Shown here piece after piece: positions 20,852 through 23,803 of a stretch of 64,000 bases of DNA; position 1 is the first letter of the stretch; each line of letters opens with the position of its first letter. Under the pieces are notes generated by a model. The model had not been told where the DNA came from and did no database searches. It saw only the letters and a program-made list of their open reading frames with translations. This stretch comes from Parabacteroides sp. PM6-13 (GTDB taxonomy: Bacteria; Bacteroidota; Bacteroidia; Bacteroidales; Tannerellaceae). A program made the translations under genes and the position numbers. The stretch spans positions 62,001-126,000 of the forward strand of contig NZ_JARXWF010000006.1 in the NCBI RefSeq assembly GCF_029892605.1. Direction: 5' to 3'.

Positions 20852-22873
20852 ATGAAATACATTAATAAATTATTCATATTAGCTACCGCAGCGGTATCGT
20901 TATGCGCATGTAGCGACTTTCTGGATAAAGAACCATTGTCACAGGGTACAGAAGCTATCTTCTATAAAACACCTGAACACTTTATACAGGCGGCCAATTC
21001 GCTTTATGATATAGAAGGTTGGAAAGACTATGACGGAAAAGCAACCTATTACAAGATGGACCAAGGCACGGACATCTCCGGTTTTGGCAGTAATGGTGGC
21101 GGCTCTGTGGGTGAAGGTGATTTCCGCTGGAATAAGCCCTACGAATATATCCGCAAATGTAATATTGTCTTGACAAAAGCAGCCGCCTATGAAGGAGCAC
21201 AGGAAGATATTGCCTCCTCAGTAGGAACAGCATTATTTTTCCGCGCTTGGCAGCATTTCTATCTGTTGCAGTATTTTGGAGGAGTACCCATTGTTGAAGA
21301 GATCATAGACGTAGCTACCCCGGTGTTGTATGGCCCGCGTAATAGCCGTTATGAAGTGATTGACTTTATCATTAAAGACTTACGGGAAGCAATTAAAAAA
21401 CTGCCACAGGAAAAGAACATTGTAGCTTCAGATAGAGGCAAAGTGAGCCAAGAAGCGGCTAAATCATTCCTGGCAAGAGTATTGCTTTACGAAGCCACCT
21501 GGGAGAAATATGTTCCAACCATTGGTTACGACCTGGATGGTAATGGCTCTTCTACTGGTGCGGGTACAACTAAACCGGCCGGTTATCCTTCTATCACCGA
21601 TATGTTGACAGAAGCAAAAAAAATGTCGAAAGAGGTAATCGATGAAGCAGAAACAGGCACATACCAACTCTGGCAGGAATGTGATTCGTTGAGCTATTTC
21701 TACTTGTTCAACCTCGATGATAAAGGAGGAAATATTGCCAATCCTTGGGGAAAAGGAAAAGCGACAAACAAAGAGTTTATTTTCACTAAAAAGTATGACT
21801 TCGACCTGCTTAAAGGAGGTATTAATATGTCGCATACGGTATACACCTGGCAAGCATCAAATATCAGTACTGTATTTGGAGAATCTTTCCTTTGTCGAAA
21901 CGGATTGCCTATCCGGGTAAGCTACACCGGCAATATGGCAGACGCACAGGACAATCCGCAATTTGGTGGATATAAGGACTTCATGGATGAATATCAAAAT
22001 CGGGATTATCGTTTTACCAGCTGTACATTCCTGCCCGACCGTCCGGTATGGACAAGTCGCGCCGAAGATGGTCGTCAGCTGACAGAGTTAGGCAAAGCTT
22101 ATCCGGATCCGGTATATCCGGCTCCGTCAGATGTCTATAACGCGAATGACCCGGCTTATAGCAGCAAACTGGCAGTATTCACTCCGCTGATCGGACTCAA
22201 TAGCACACATAACGGTTATGGCAGCCGTAAGTTTGGCGTTGAGGGAGCAAAGCGTAACAGTGAACAGGAATCGGCCGACTATCCACTTATCCGTTTGGCA
22301 GAAGTTCATTTGATTTATGCTGAAGCTACTTGTGAACTGGGTAATGGAGCCATCTCCGACGCAGACCTTGATTTCTCCATTAATAAGAACCGTGCCCGCG
22401 CCGGTGTGGCTCCATTGACAAACGCTTTGATCGCGAATGTTTGGGATGCTGGCTATTGGGATCACGAACAAAACAAAACGATCTGTAAAAAGATGAATAT
22501 GATGGACGAAATCCGTCGCGAACGCGCATGCGAACTCTTTGCGGAAGGATTCCGTGAAAATGACCTGAAACGTTGGGGTATTGCTCACATCAATTTGAAA
22601 GGTCAGAAACTGGGACGTAAAATTTACGGCACAGCTTATATGACGGCTAAAGCAAATGATGCAACCTATTTCGGACAAACTGCTTACGATCCAAGTGTTC
22701 GTCCGACGCAATACGGCATTTATGAAGGCACAGGCCCGAACGACCCTGACTACGGTCGTCCTATCGCAACACTGCCTGCCAATACCTTGTATTCACAACG
22801 TGATTATCTTCGTCCGATACCACTGGGACAAATTCGCTTGAATGAGAATTTGGCACAAAACCCCGGTTGGTAA
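20852..22873 (+). CDS. SusD/RagB-family surface lipoprotein
   Basis: A lipoprotein of 673 residues with lipobox LCAC (Cys20) and the typical start CSDFLDKEP. It shows SusD features: helical TPR-like repeats (SSVGTALFFRAWQHFYLLQYFGGVPIV), and the C-terminal region RNRARAG-type NKNRARAGVAP and IRRERACELFAEGFRENDLKRWG. It binds substrate over the SusC pore at the cell surface. It is longer than most SusD proteins (about 500-600). The gene lies 22 bp after SusC; no glycosidase, protease, sulfatase or lyase follows. Confidence 0.95.
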   Translation: MKYINKLFILATAAVSLCACSDFLDKEPLSQGTEAIFYKTPEHFIQAANSLYDIEGWKDYDGKATYYKMDQGTDISGFGSNGGGSVGEGDFRWNKPYEYIRKCNIVLTKAAAYEGAQEDIASSVGTALFFRAWQHFYLLQYFGGVPIVEEIIDVATPVLYGPRNSRYEVIDFIIKDLREAIKKLPQEKNIVASDRGKVSQEAAKSFLARVLLYEATWEKYVPTIGYDLDGNGSSTGAGTTKPAGYPSITDMLTEAKKMSKEVIDEAETGTYQLWQECDSLSYFYLFNLDDKGGNIANPWGKGKATNKEFIFTKKYDFDLLKGGINMSHTVYTWQASNISTVFGESFLCRNGLPIRVSYTGNMADAQDNPQFGGYKDFMDEYQNRDYRFTSCTFLPDRPVWTSRAEDGRQLTELGKAYPDPVYPAPSDVYNANDPAYSSKLAVFTPLIGLNSTHNGYGSRKFGVEGAKRNSEQESADYPLIRLAEVHLIYAEATCELGNGAISDADLDFSINKNRARAGVAPLTNALIANVWDAGYWDHEQNKTICKKMNMMDEIRRERACELFAEGFRENDLKRWGIAHINLKGQKLGRKIYGTAYMTAKANDATYFGQTAYDPSVRPTQYGIYEGTGPNDPDYGRPIATLPANTLYSQRDYLRPIPLGQIRLNENLAQNPGW

Positions 22874-22901
22874 TTGTGTAAAAACTATACTTCATACTAA
22901 A

Positions 22902-22931
22902 AGGGTTGCTCTTACGGGCAACTCTTTTTTT
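22902..22931 (+). terminator. Terminator after SusD
   Basis: A GTTGC/GCAAC stem (near 22904-22922) is followed by seven T residues, a normal intrinsic terminator about 30 bp after the SusD stop. Confidence 0.7.
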
Positions 22932-23190
22932 GGTATGACAGGCTTATTCCTATTTGCTTTGAGTAGTAGGTTCAGATCACACAGATTACACAAGGGTTTA
23001 TATTCAAATGGGAGAAAAGGGGAAGGTGGCTTTTGGCACAGATTGCACAGATTACACAGTGTTAAATATTCAATCGGAGAAGACGATAAAGGCAAGCAAT
23101 CGTAGATTGCTCCGCTCTGTAGCCAGTTGCCTCAGGCTGCTGGTCTTCAAATGGGAGGGGAGGGGAAGGTTGCGGGGAAGCACGCCGCAG

Positions 23191-23372
23191 GCGTGAGATT
23201 ATACATAACCGTATGCAAGCGTAGCGCAGCTTACGGTAGTGAATCCTCTATATAAAAAGCCCCGCATGGGGCGGGATTGTGACAGATCTCGCACCTGCGG
23301 CGCTTGATTGACAGGGAGTCGCTATACCGTAAGCTGCGCTGCGCTTGCATACGGTTATGCATAATCTCGCGC
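23191..23372. repeat. 48-bp near-perfect inverted repeat element with internal hairpin
   Basis: Positions 23191-23238 and 23325-23372 are reverse complements at 45 of 48 positions, separated by 86 bp. The spacer holds a GCCCC/GGGGC hairpin (23259-23272). Small stems also sit at the outer ends: CACGCC/GGCGTG at 23181-23195 and CGCGC/GCGCG near 23368-23382. Part of the terminal motif (CTGCGGCG) recurs inside the spacer at 23296-23303. The layout resembles a REP/BIME-like or decayed miniature mobile element. Confidence 0.75.
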
Positions 23373-23795
23373 TTGCAGCGCGCTCTCCACCTTCACATCT
23401 TGCAATATCTGAAGACGCTCCTATCTCCTATCTCCTATCTCCTTCACATCTTCCAAAATTTGAATCCTTCCCCTTTACATCTCATCTCCTTTGCTTTACA
23501 CTACGCTAAGCAATTTACAATTCACCTTTCCATTTCTTAAAACCTTACAATCCGTAAGTAGCTATTCTTTTTGGAGAATTTGCAAGTAGCATTTTGACAT
23601 TTCGGCGGGAGTATTTTTCCAAAAACGTAGGGGTATTTAAAATTAGTCAGGCGAGTAACACTTTTTAACGTATCATATTGTAAAGCAAAACCGACTTTTT
23701 GCTGACAGTATGTATTTTTTCGACTAAATCATCCTGTTTTGGGGATAAGAGAAAAAACGACGCTATTTTTAACAACTTGATTTGAAGGATTTATG

Positions 23796-23803
23796 TATTT
23801 TTG
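23796..23803 (+). promoter_or_regulatory. -7 box five bases before the mfd start
   Basis: TATTTTTG fits TAnnTTTG; the mfd ATG follows at 23809. A transcript starting at the normal distance would be leaderless. Confidence 0.45.

Follow-up and report, generated by a model that had tools for sequence, protein, structure and literature searches.

We analysed a window of 64,000 nucleotides from Parabacteroides sp. PM6-13 (contig NZ_JARXWF010000006.1, positions 62,001 to 126,000), in which a large inverted repeat lies between a SusD-like gene and mfd. Sequence comparisons suggest, with a probability of roughly 0.78, that this repeat is a non-autonomous mobile element of a Y1 HUH transposon with the Y---Q--HH signature, from which the transposase gene is missing. 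Such an element would resemble a REPIN (a doublet of repetitive extragenic palindromic [REP] sequences forming a hairpin) or a miniature inverted-repeat transposable element (MITE). Its core (23180-23381, plus strand), identified from alignment of 33 full genome copies, consists of two inverted halves with no gene between them. Within each locally folded half, the order is hairpin A, a linker, hairpin B, about 20 nucleotides and hairpin A'.

The draft genome containing the window (4.04 Mb in 39 contigs, 99.46% complete) holds 33 full copies of this element, which we call family W, and one half copy where contig C15 ends; the best 40 of 67 first-look candidates were scored. Pairwise identity between the copies averages 96.3% and ranges from 91.6 to 100% (528 pairs). 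Application of a 19-base half-unit pattern, allowing up to three mismatches, gave 68 matches, namely 67 W halves and one stray with three mismatches, and the reversed control of the same pattern gave no matches in the genome. The 67 halves make up 33 inverted pairs and the half at the contig edge, and no other single half was found. An initial annotation, made from the window's sequence alone, had named a single copy without relatives elsewhere as the result that would overturn a mobile origin; what we found were these 33 full copies and a half copy, and related ends in other species. By crude calling of open reading frames (ORFs) the copies are intergenic. Four of the 33 overlap an ORF of 95-144 amino acids, and these four ORFs show no other sign of being genes. 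The copies adjoin unrelated genes in several orientations. The gaps of at least 250 bp with a copy (n = 30) comprised 19 tandem, 10 divergent and 1 convergent, compared with 5 tandem, 6 divergent and 4 convergent gaps without a copy (n = 15), a background too small to lean on.

The link to a transposase comes from other bacteria. A 35-nucleotide core of the arm occurs exactly in six stretches of the genome collection: one in Paludibacter sp. 221, four in the Bacteroidales metagenome-assembled genome (MAG) Spi319_bin22 and one in the Bacteroidetes MAG ADurb.BinA174. At the Paludibacter locus (L093), two similar inverted ends enclose an intact Y1 (HUH) gene of 148 amino acids, and A' adjoins this gene on both sides. 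In Spi319_bin22 (L101), inverted A-B-A' ends enclose a 5'-truncated Y1 gene. The parts of the window element follow the order seen at these two loci, minus the gene. It is thus short and gene-less, with terminal inverted repeats common to an autonomous element in other species, as is characteristic of MITEs. A MITE of a DDE insertion sequence would likewise have terminal inverted repeats (here about 60 bp), no coding capacity and many copies. We consider this origin very unlikely. The sole gene found between such ends encodes a Y1 HUH transposase, the stems covary (see below) as expected if folded single strands are recognised, and visual inspection of the flanks, which was not systematic, revealed no target-site duplication. 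A further Paludibacter locus (L067) is a pair without a gene in which the two B hairpins are of different types. Searches of plasmids, phages and viral contigs returned no matches (viral contigs were searched with one exact 34-nucleotide pattern).

Comparison of one locus with its relatives indicates that extra DNA is present there. In the window's genome the fructokinase-permease interval measures 638 bp and holds one W pair and one pair of a second family, Y, described below. The matched parts of the two genes lie 9-91 bp apart in six of seven relatives, and the seventh (G003) gave no gene match. At the window locus, a search for an empty site from the mfd side found no syntenic match on the SusD-like side. 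W is absent from the four other genomes of the genus, apart from a single match of 37 bp in G002. Of the 393 genomes searched across the order, five, including the window's, had any match, and the full element was found in that one alone, with at most the best two candidates per genome scored. Because the copies are so similar and W is nearly absent from relatives, these data point to a recent amplification of W in this lineage. The initial proposal of a miniature mobile sequence is thus supported by the many copies, by the extra DNA at one locus relative to six relatives and by the ends that flank a Y1 gene elsewhere.

The arms of the window element (23191-23238 and 23325-23372) have exactly 3 mismatches over 48 positions, reproducing the count first reported, and 6 over 60 when extended to 23179-23238 and 23325-23384. 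As DNA the element folds at –84.3 kcal/mol, compared with –38 ± 3.5 for shuffled sequences, none of 200 of which was as low. On the plus strand, the left half comprises hairpin A (23181-23195), the pairs of which are kept in 32 of 32 distinct rows; the linker (23196-23207), which together with the first bases of hairpin B ends in TAACC; hairpin B (23208-23237), identified by fold and by covariation over 23 ends; and hairpin A' (23259-23272), identified by fold and terminator-like on the minus strand. The right half runs on the minus strand. It has hairpin A' at 23291-23303 (from repeat comparison and fold), with one of five pairs a G-T on the minus strand (A-C on the plus), hairpin B at 23326-23355 (from fold and pair conservation among copies), the linker at 23356-23368 (from alignment of copies) and hairpin A at 23369-23381, which folds likewise and has a single compensatory pair, seen in 5 of the 32 distinct copies. 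The small terminal stems seen initially are the two A hairpins. The internal G/C hairpin and the partial third copy of the end motif reported at the same time (the latter at 23286-23302, matching 23183-23199 and containing the right-half hairpin) are the two A' hairpins.

Because the inverted arms surround a short spacer of 86 bp, this element could also be an invertible segment in which the spacer flips between the arms as a phase switch, and the initial annotation had left such inversion open. The left and right A hairpins differ and therefore the orientation of an element can be read. In all 33 aligned copies the spacer lies the same way round with respect to the flanks and arms, which are distinct and include these unequal hairpins (an automatic check scored 32 of 33, missing L030 owing to a one-base deletion). 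Also, neither strand of the spacer contains a TAnnTTTG box, as had been noted at first. Together, these results leave an invertible segment extremely unlikely.

To judge the proposed folds we used an alignment of 23 ends, consisting of 21 of 31 hits plus the Y and X ends of the window's genome; the Y row adds no hairpin A. The TAACC sequence is invariant in these rows and the stems change. Ten of 17 stem pairs are changed on both sides, which was equalled in 2 of 500 shuffles, and the number of double-sided cells is 40, compared with 12.6 ± 2.5 after shuffling (none of 500 shuffles reached this) and 5-12 when the partners were slid; since the rows are related and were picked by similarity, the shuffle figures are not probabilities. 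Left out of the alignment were the second L039 end, L102, the second L077 end (which has a run of N), the second of L116, both of L079 (the same places as L093), both of L112 (near-copies of L114), L056 and L087. The last two break the linker, with TAATT in L056 and GGATACC and no hairpin A in L087. Covariation therefore gives strong but not clean support for selection on structure, because the rows are related and similarity-chosen and because these two omitted ends depart from TAACC. We also considered whether covariation among the W copies distinguishes local hairpins from one long cruciform. The local hairpins have one compensatory pair (5 cells) and the cruciform one pair (1 cell), so the copies cannot tell them apart.

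The Y---Q--HH signature is present as YIKNQREHH in L093, YIKNQQEHH in L104 and YILNQPEHH in L106. The L093 transposase passes the NCBIfam cut-off for IS200/IS605 (65.9 vs. 55) and fails that for REP_Tyr_transpos (23.2 vs. 80). The same is true of the Z-type transposase of the window's genome (75.1 vs. 55 and 42.6 vs. 80). The Y-type transposase is just below the IS200/IS605 cut-off (51.1 vs. 55) and REP_Tyr_transpos is not listed for it. Weak sequence matches to solved transposases were also obtained. In a 30-protein tree, the transposases of W, X, Y and L149 group in a single clade (99/97).

These scores bear on whether the element is a canonical REPIN or bacterial interspersed mosaic element (BIME), that is, a doublet of REP sequences served by a class-2 REP-associated tyrosine transposase (RAYT; TnpA_REP). 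The inverted doublets, the intergenic position of the repeats and the Y1-type transposase in relatives fit this classification. So does the loop of hairpin B, which contains a GTAG in 18 of the 23 aligned ends, a possible link to REPINs. However, GTAG adjoins hairpin B in just one of 23 rows, the loop GTAG is missing in five, including the right half of the window element, each half has three hairpins instead of one, and the L093 enzyme scores as IS200/IS605-like. A canonical REPIN or BIME is thus unlikely. The REP/BIME type that was initially suggested holds only by analogy, given the lack of a conserved GTAG foot and a Paludibacter enzyme below the REP-associated cut-off. The element works like a REPIN and is not classed as one, because neither the GTAG foot nor a RAYT-class enzyme was found.

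The window's genome also contains sister families with the same general design. It has intact Y1 genes on contigs C18 (Y) and C8 (Z), one on C1 that is split over two frames (X), a pseudogene with stops on C1 (V) and a short fragment at C8:27258. The Y, X, Z and V genes are each flanked by inverted ends with a W-like layout and a different sequence. Gene-less inverted pairs were found in 7 loci for X, 6 for Y, 3 for V and 2 for Z, some of which overlap, in a survey of 229,518 bases from 40 stretches, which were selected for containing W copies, partial matches or Y1 genes. Among the best 40 of 47 candidates genome-wide, 31 matches covered at least 176 of the 221 bases of a Y pair (81-100% identity), and no fewer than four places had a match to a single half. 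This spread in identity and these half-only matches suggest that family Y is older than W. Genome G151, which belongs to another family of the order, has at L114 (1502-1701) an inverted pair that lacks a gene and has ends intermediate between W and Y. The split X-type gene (L105, C1:26529-26943) is interrupted near a run of A; error, decay and frameshifting would account for this equally well.

We then compared Y1 loci across the order, where 46 of 60 sampled genomes have a Y1_Tnp match. The survey classified 39 of 49 loci, with 10 lacking a classifiable ORF, and 11 of the 39 were without full flanks. Left and right inverted repeats (E ≤ 1e-6) occur at 15 of the 22 Y---Q--HH loci with full flanks, compared with 1 in 300 cross-locus controls, and at 2 of 6 other Y1 loci. 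By eye, the A-linker-B arrangement is clear in 7 of these 15 (L092, L093, L104, L105, L106, L139 and L143) and unclear in three (L094, L141 and L148). L101, L107 and L149, for which full flanks or the ORF are missing, show it clearly as well. We lean, if only slightly, towards the broader idea that the Bacteroidales Y---Q--HH Y1 transposases form a distinct single-strand transposition system with inverted ends, three covarying hairpins and a near-fixed linker (TAACC in the tested clade). Each end type would spawn gene-less pairs, giving five parallel families in one genome, and W would persist without a recognisable cognate gene, possibly mobilised in trans.

By analogy with the biochemistry of IS200/IS605 and REP systems, the Y1 transposase would recognise the hairpins on single-stranded DNA and cut next to them, and the inverted pair would move as one unit. 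Because no W-type gene was found in the draft, the W driver may be a transposase that has since been lost or was not assembled, or the related Y-type enzyme working in trans. In the window's genome, the L093 protein matches the Y-type transposase best (50% identity). The Y-type end has the inner TGCAAG...GCAGCT of hairpin B in common with W, and we note this likeness beside the option that a Y-type enzyme replaces the W enzyme.

Several observations weigh against a mobile element of this kind. No movement of the element has been observed, and searches of the draft genome by Pfam family and with the L093 protein found no W-type transposase gene. The exact borders and the target site are not readable from the locus comparison. 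W-like arms lie beside a Y1 match at only 2 of 8 places in Paludibacter, 4 of 6 in Spi319 and 0 of 1 in ADurb.BinA174. Covariation within the W copies amounts to one pair only. In the survey of the order, 7 of the 22 Y---Q--HH loci with full flanks have no inverted flanks, and 5 of the 15 inverted repeats are of another kind (L096, L098, L128, L132 and L134).

As a comparison with known systems, IS200/IS605 elements likewise have an HUH Y1 transposase (the NCBIfam cut-off being passed by the L093 and Z-type proteins) and hairpins at their ends. The two ends of an IS200/IS605 element are not known to be inverted copies of each other, whereas the ends described here are. According to the parts of the REPIN description used here (PMC3116915), REPINs and family W have in common an inverted doublet that behaves as one repeat unit, an intergenic position, an inferred Y1-type driver and a long hairpin in single strands. 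They differ in that REPINs have one short REP where W has three hairpins in about 90 nucleotides per half, and in W no solitary halves, no GTAG foot and no cognate gene in the genome were found, and the enzyme is IS200-like. TIRtrons, as far as the sections of their description drawn on here go (PMC3733652), also have a Y1-type transposase (TIRYT) between long terminal inverted repeats unrelated to GTAG REPs, and the ends form moderately abundant repeat families. By contrast, their GGGGWSAS motif was not found in the present ends, although no systematic search was made, and the A-linker-B-A' layout is not among the features described in those sections. Y1 subclass 1.2 (2018, PMC6006769, in the portion used here) has Y---Q--HH, occurrence in Bacteroidetes and few gene copies per genome in common with our loci. 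It is described there as generally without typical IS200 terminal structures, whereas the ends of many members here are inverted and structured, and copies lacking the gene occur. Of the motifs tabulated for the subclass, DH[IV]H and WQ occur here only in part, with DHVH in L093 and L106, DHLH in L104, WQ in L106 and WG in L093 and L104. No description of these ends was found in the open-licence PMC literature, a scope that most subscription papers fall outside. Our results thus connect an anonymous repeat with a group of transposases in which structured ends have been described as generally absent, and they supply A-linker-B as a testable substrate. Family W also offers a natural case of REPIN-like elements that would have multiplied recently with no recognisable cognate transposase in the genome, and is relevant to the question of how such elements outlast their own enzymes or borrow others.

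The window element sits in a 936-bp stretch with the SusD-like gene (a weak NCBIfam match, below cut-off) on one side and mfd (transcription-repair coupling factor; NCBIfam match above cut-off) on the other. It lies 307 bp past the stop of the SusD-like gene, so its placement downstream of SusD in the initial annotation was correct. Because the SusD-like gene has its own terminator-like hairpin (22899-22928) and other copies adjoin unrelated genes, this neighbourhood is incidental. The element also has a very stable RNA fold (–149.5 compared with –75 ± 4.8 for shuffled sequences), left hairpin A' is terminator-like on the minus strand, and the region has 4 terminator-like sites where 1.0 is expected. 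These features would suit a structured RNA or terminator kept for host use. However, an Rfam search of 22800-23800 gave matches that were all below gathering scores, the copies do not keep to one kind of gene or orientation, and the four other genomes of the genus that were searched do without the element apart from the short match in G002. A host function of this kind is therefore distinctly unlikely, and as a mobile element the repeat may have a secondary effect on neighbouring transcription.

Flank comparison showed that a purine-rich left flank (23146-23179, plus strand) is loosely common to many copies, as is a CTTC...GAAG unit in the right flank (23382-23415, plus strand); each may belong to the element or to the target. 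In the window, CTTC...GAAG palindromic units occupy 23382-23464, and such units lie beside element ends of several families. A 16-bp palindrome, CTTCCAAAATT(T/G)GAAG, with up to two changes, occurs 20 times within 100 bp of a family end and 3 times elsewhere in the loci searched, where zones this close to family ends make up 9% of bases. It is a possible target or co-mobile piece. Left of the element there are direct repeats rich in CACAGATTACACAG together with purine-rich copies (22973-23073 and 23003-23173), and the stretch at 23091-23143, starting CAAGCAATCGTAGATTGC, is found again on the left side of the W copies at L016, L017 and L021. Another repeat of about 135 bp lies upstream of mfd (23583-23718). 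It has dozens of matches in the related genome G003, and stretches similar to it occur in the flanks of some W copies in this genome. In L041, L043 and L046 the right hairpin A of a W copy runs into V-family end sequence (CTCCTTGGGAATC), and these junctions look as if two families recombined there.
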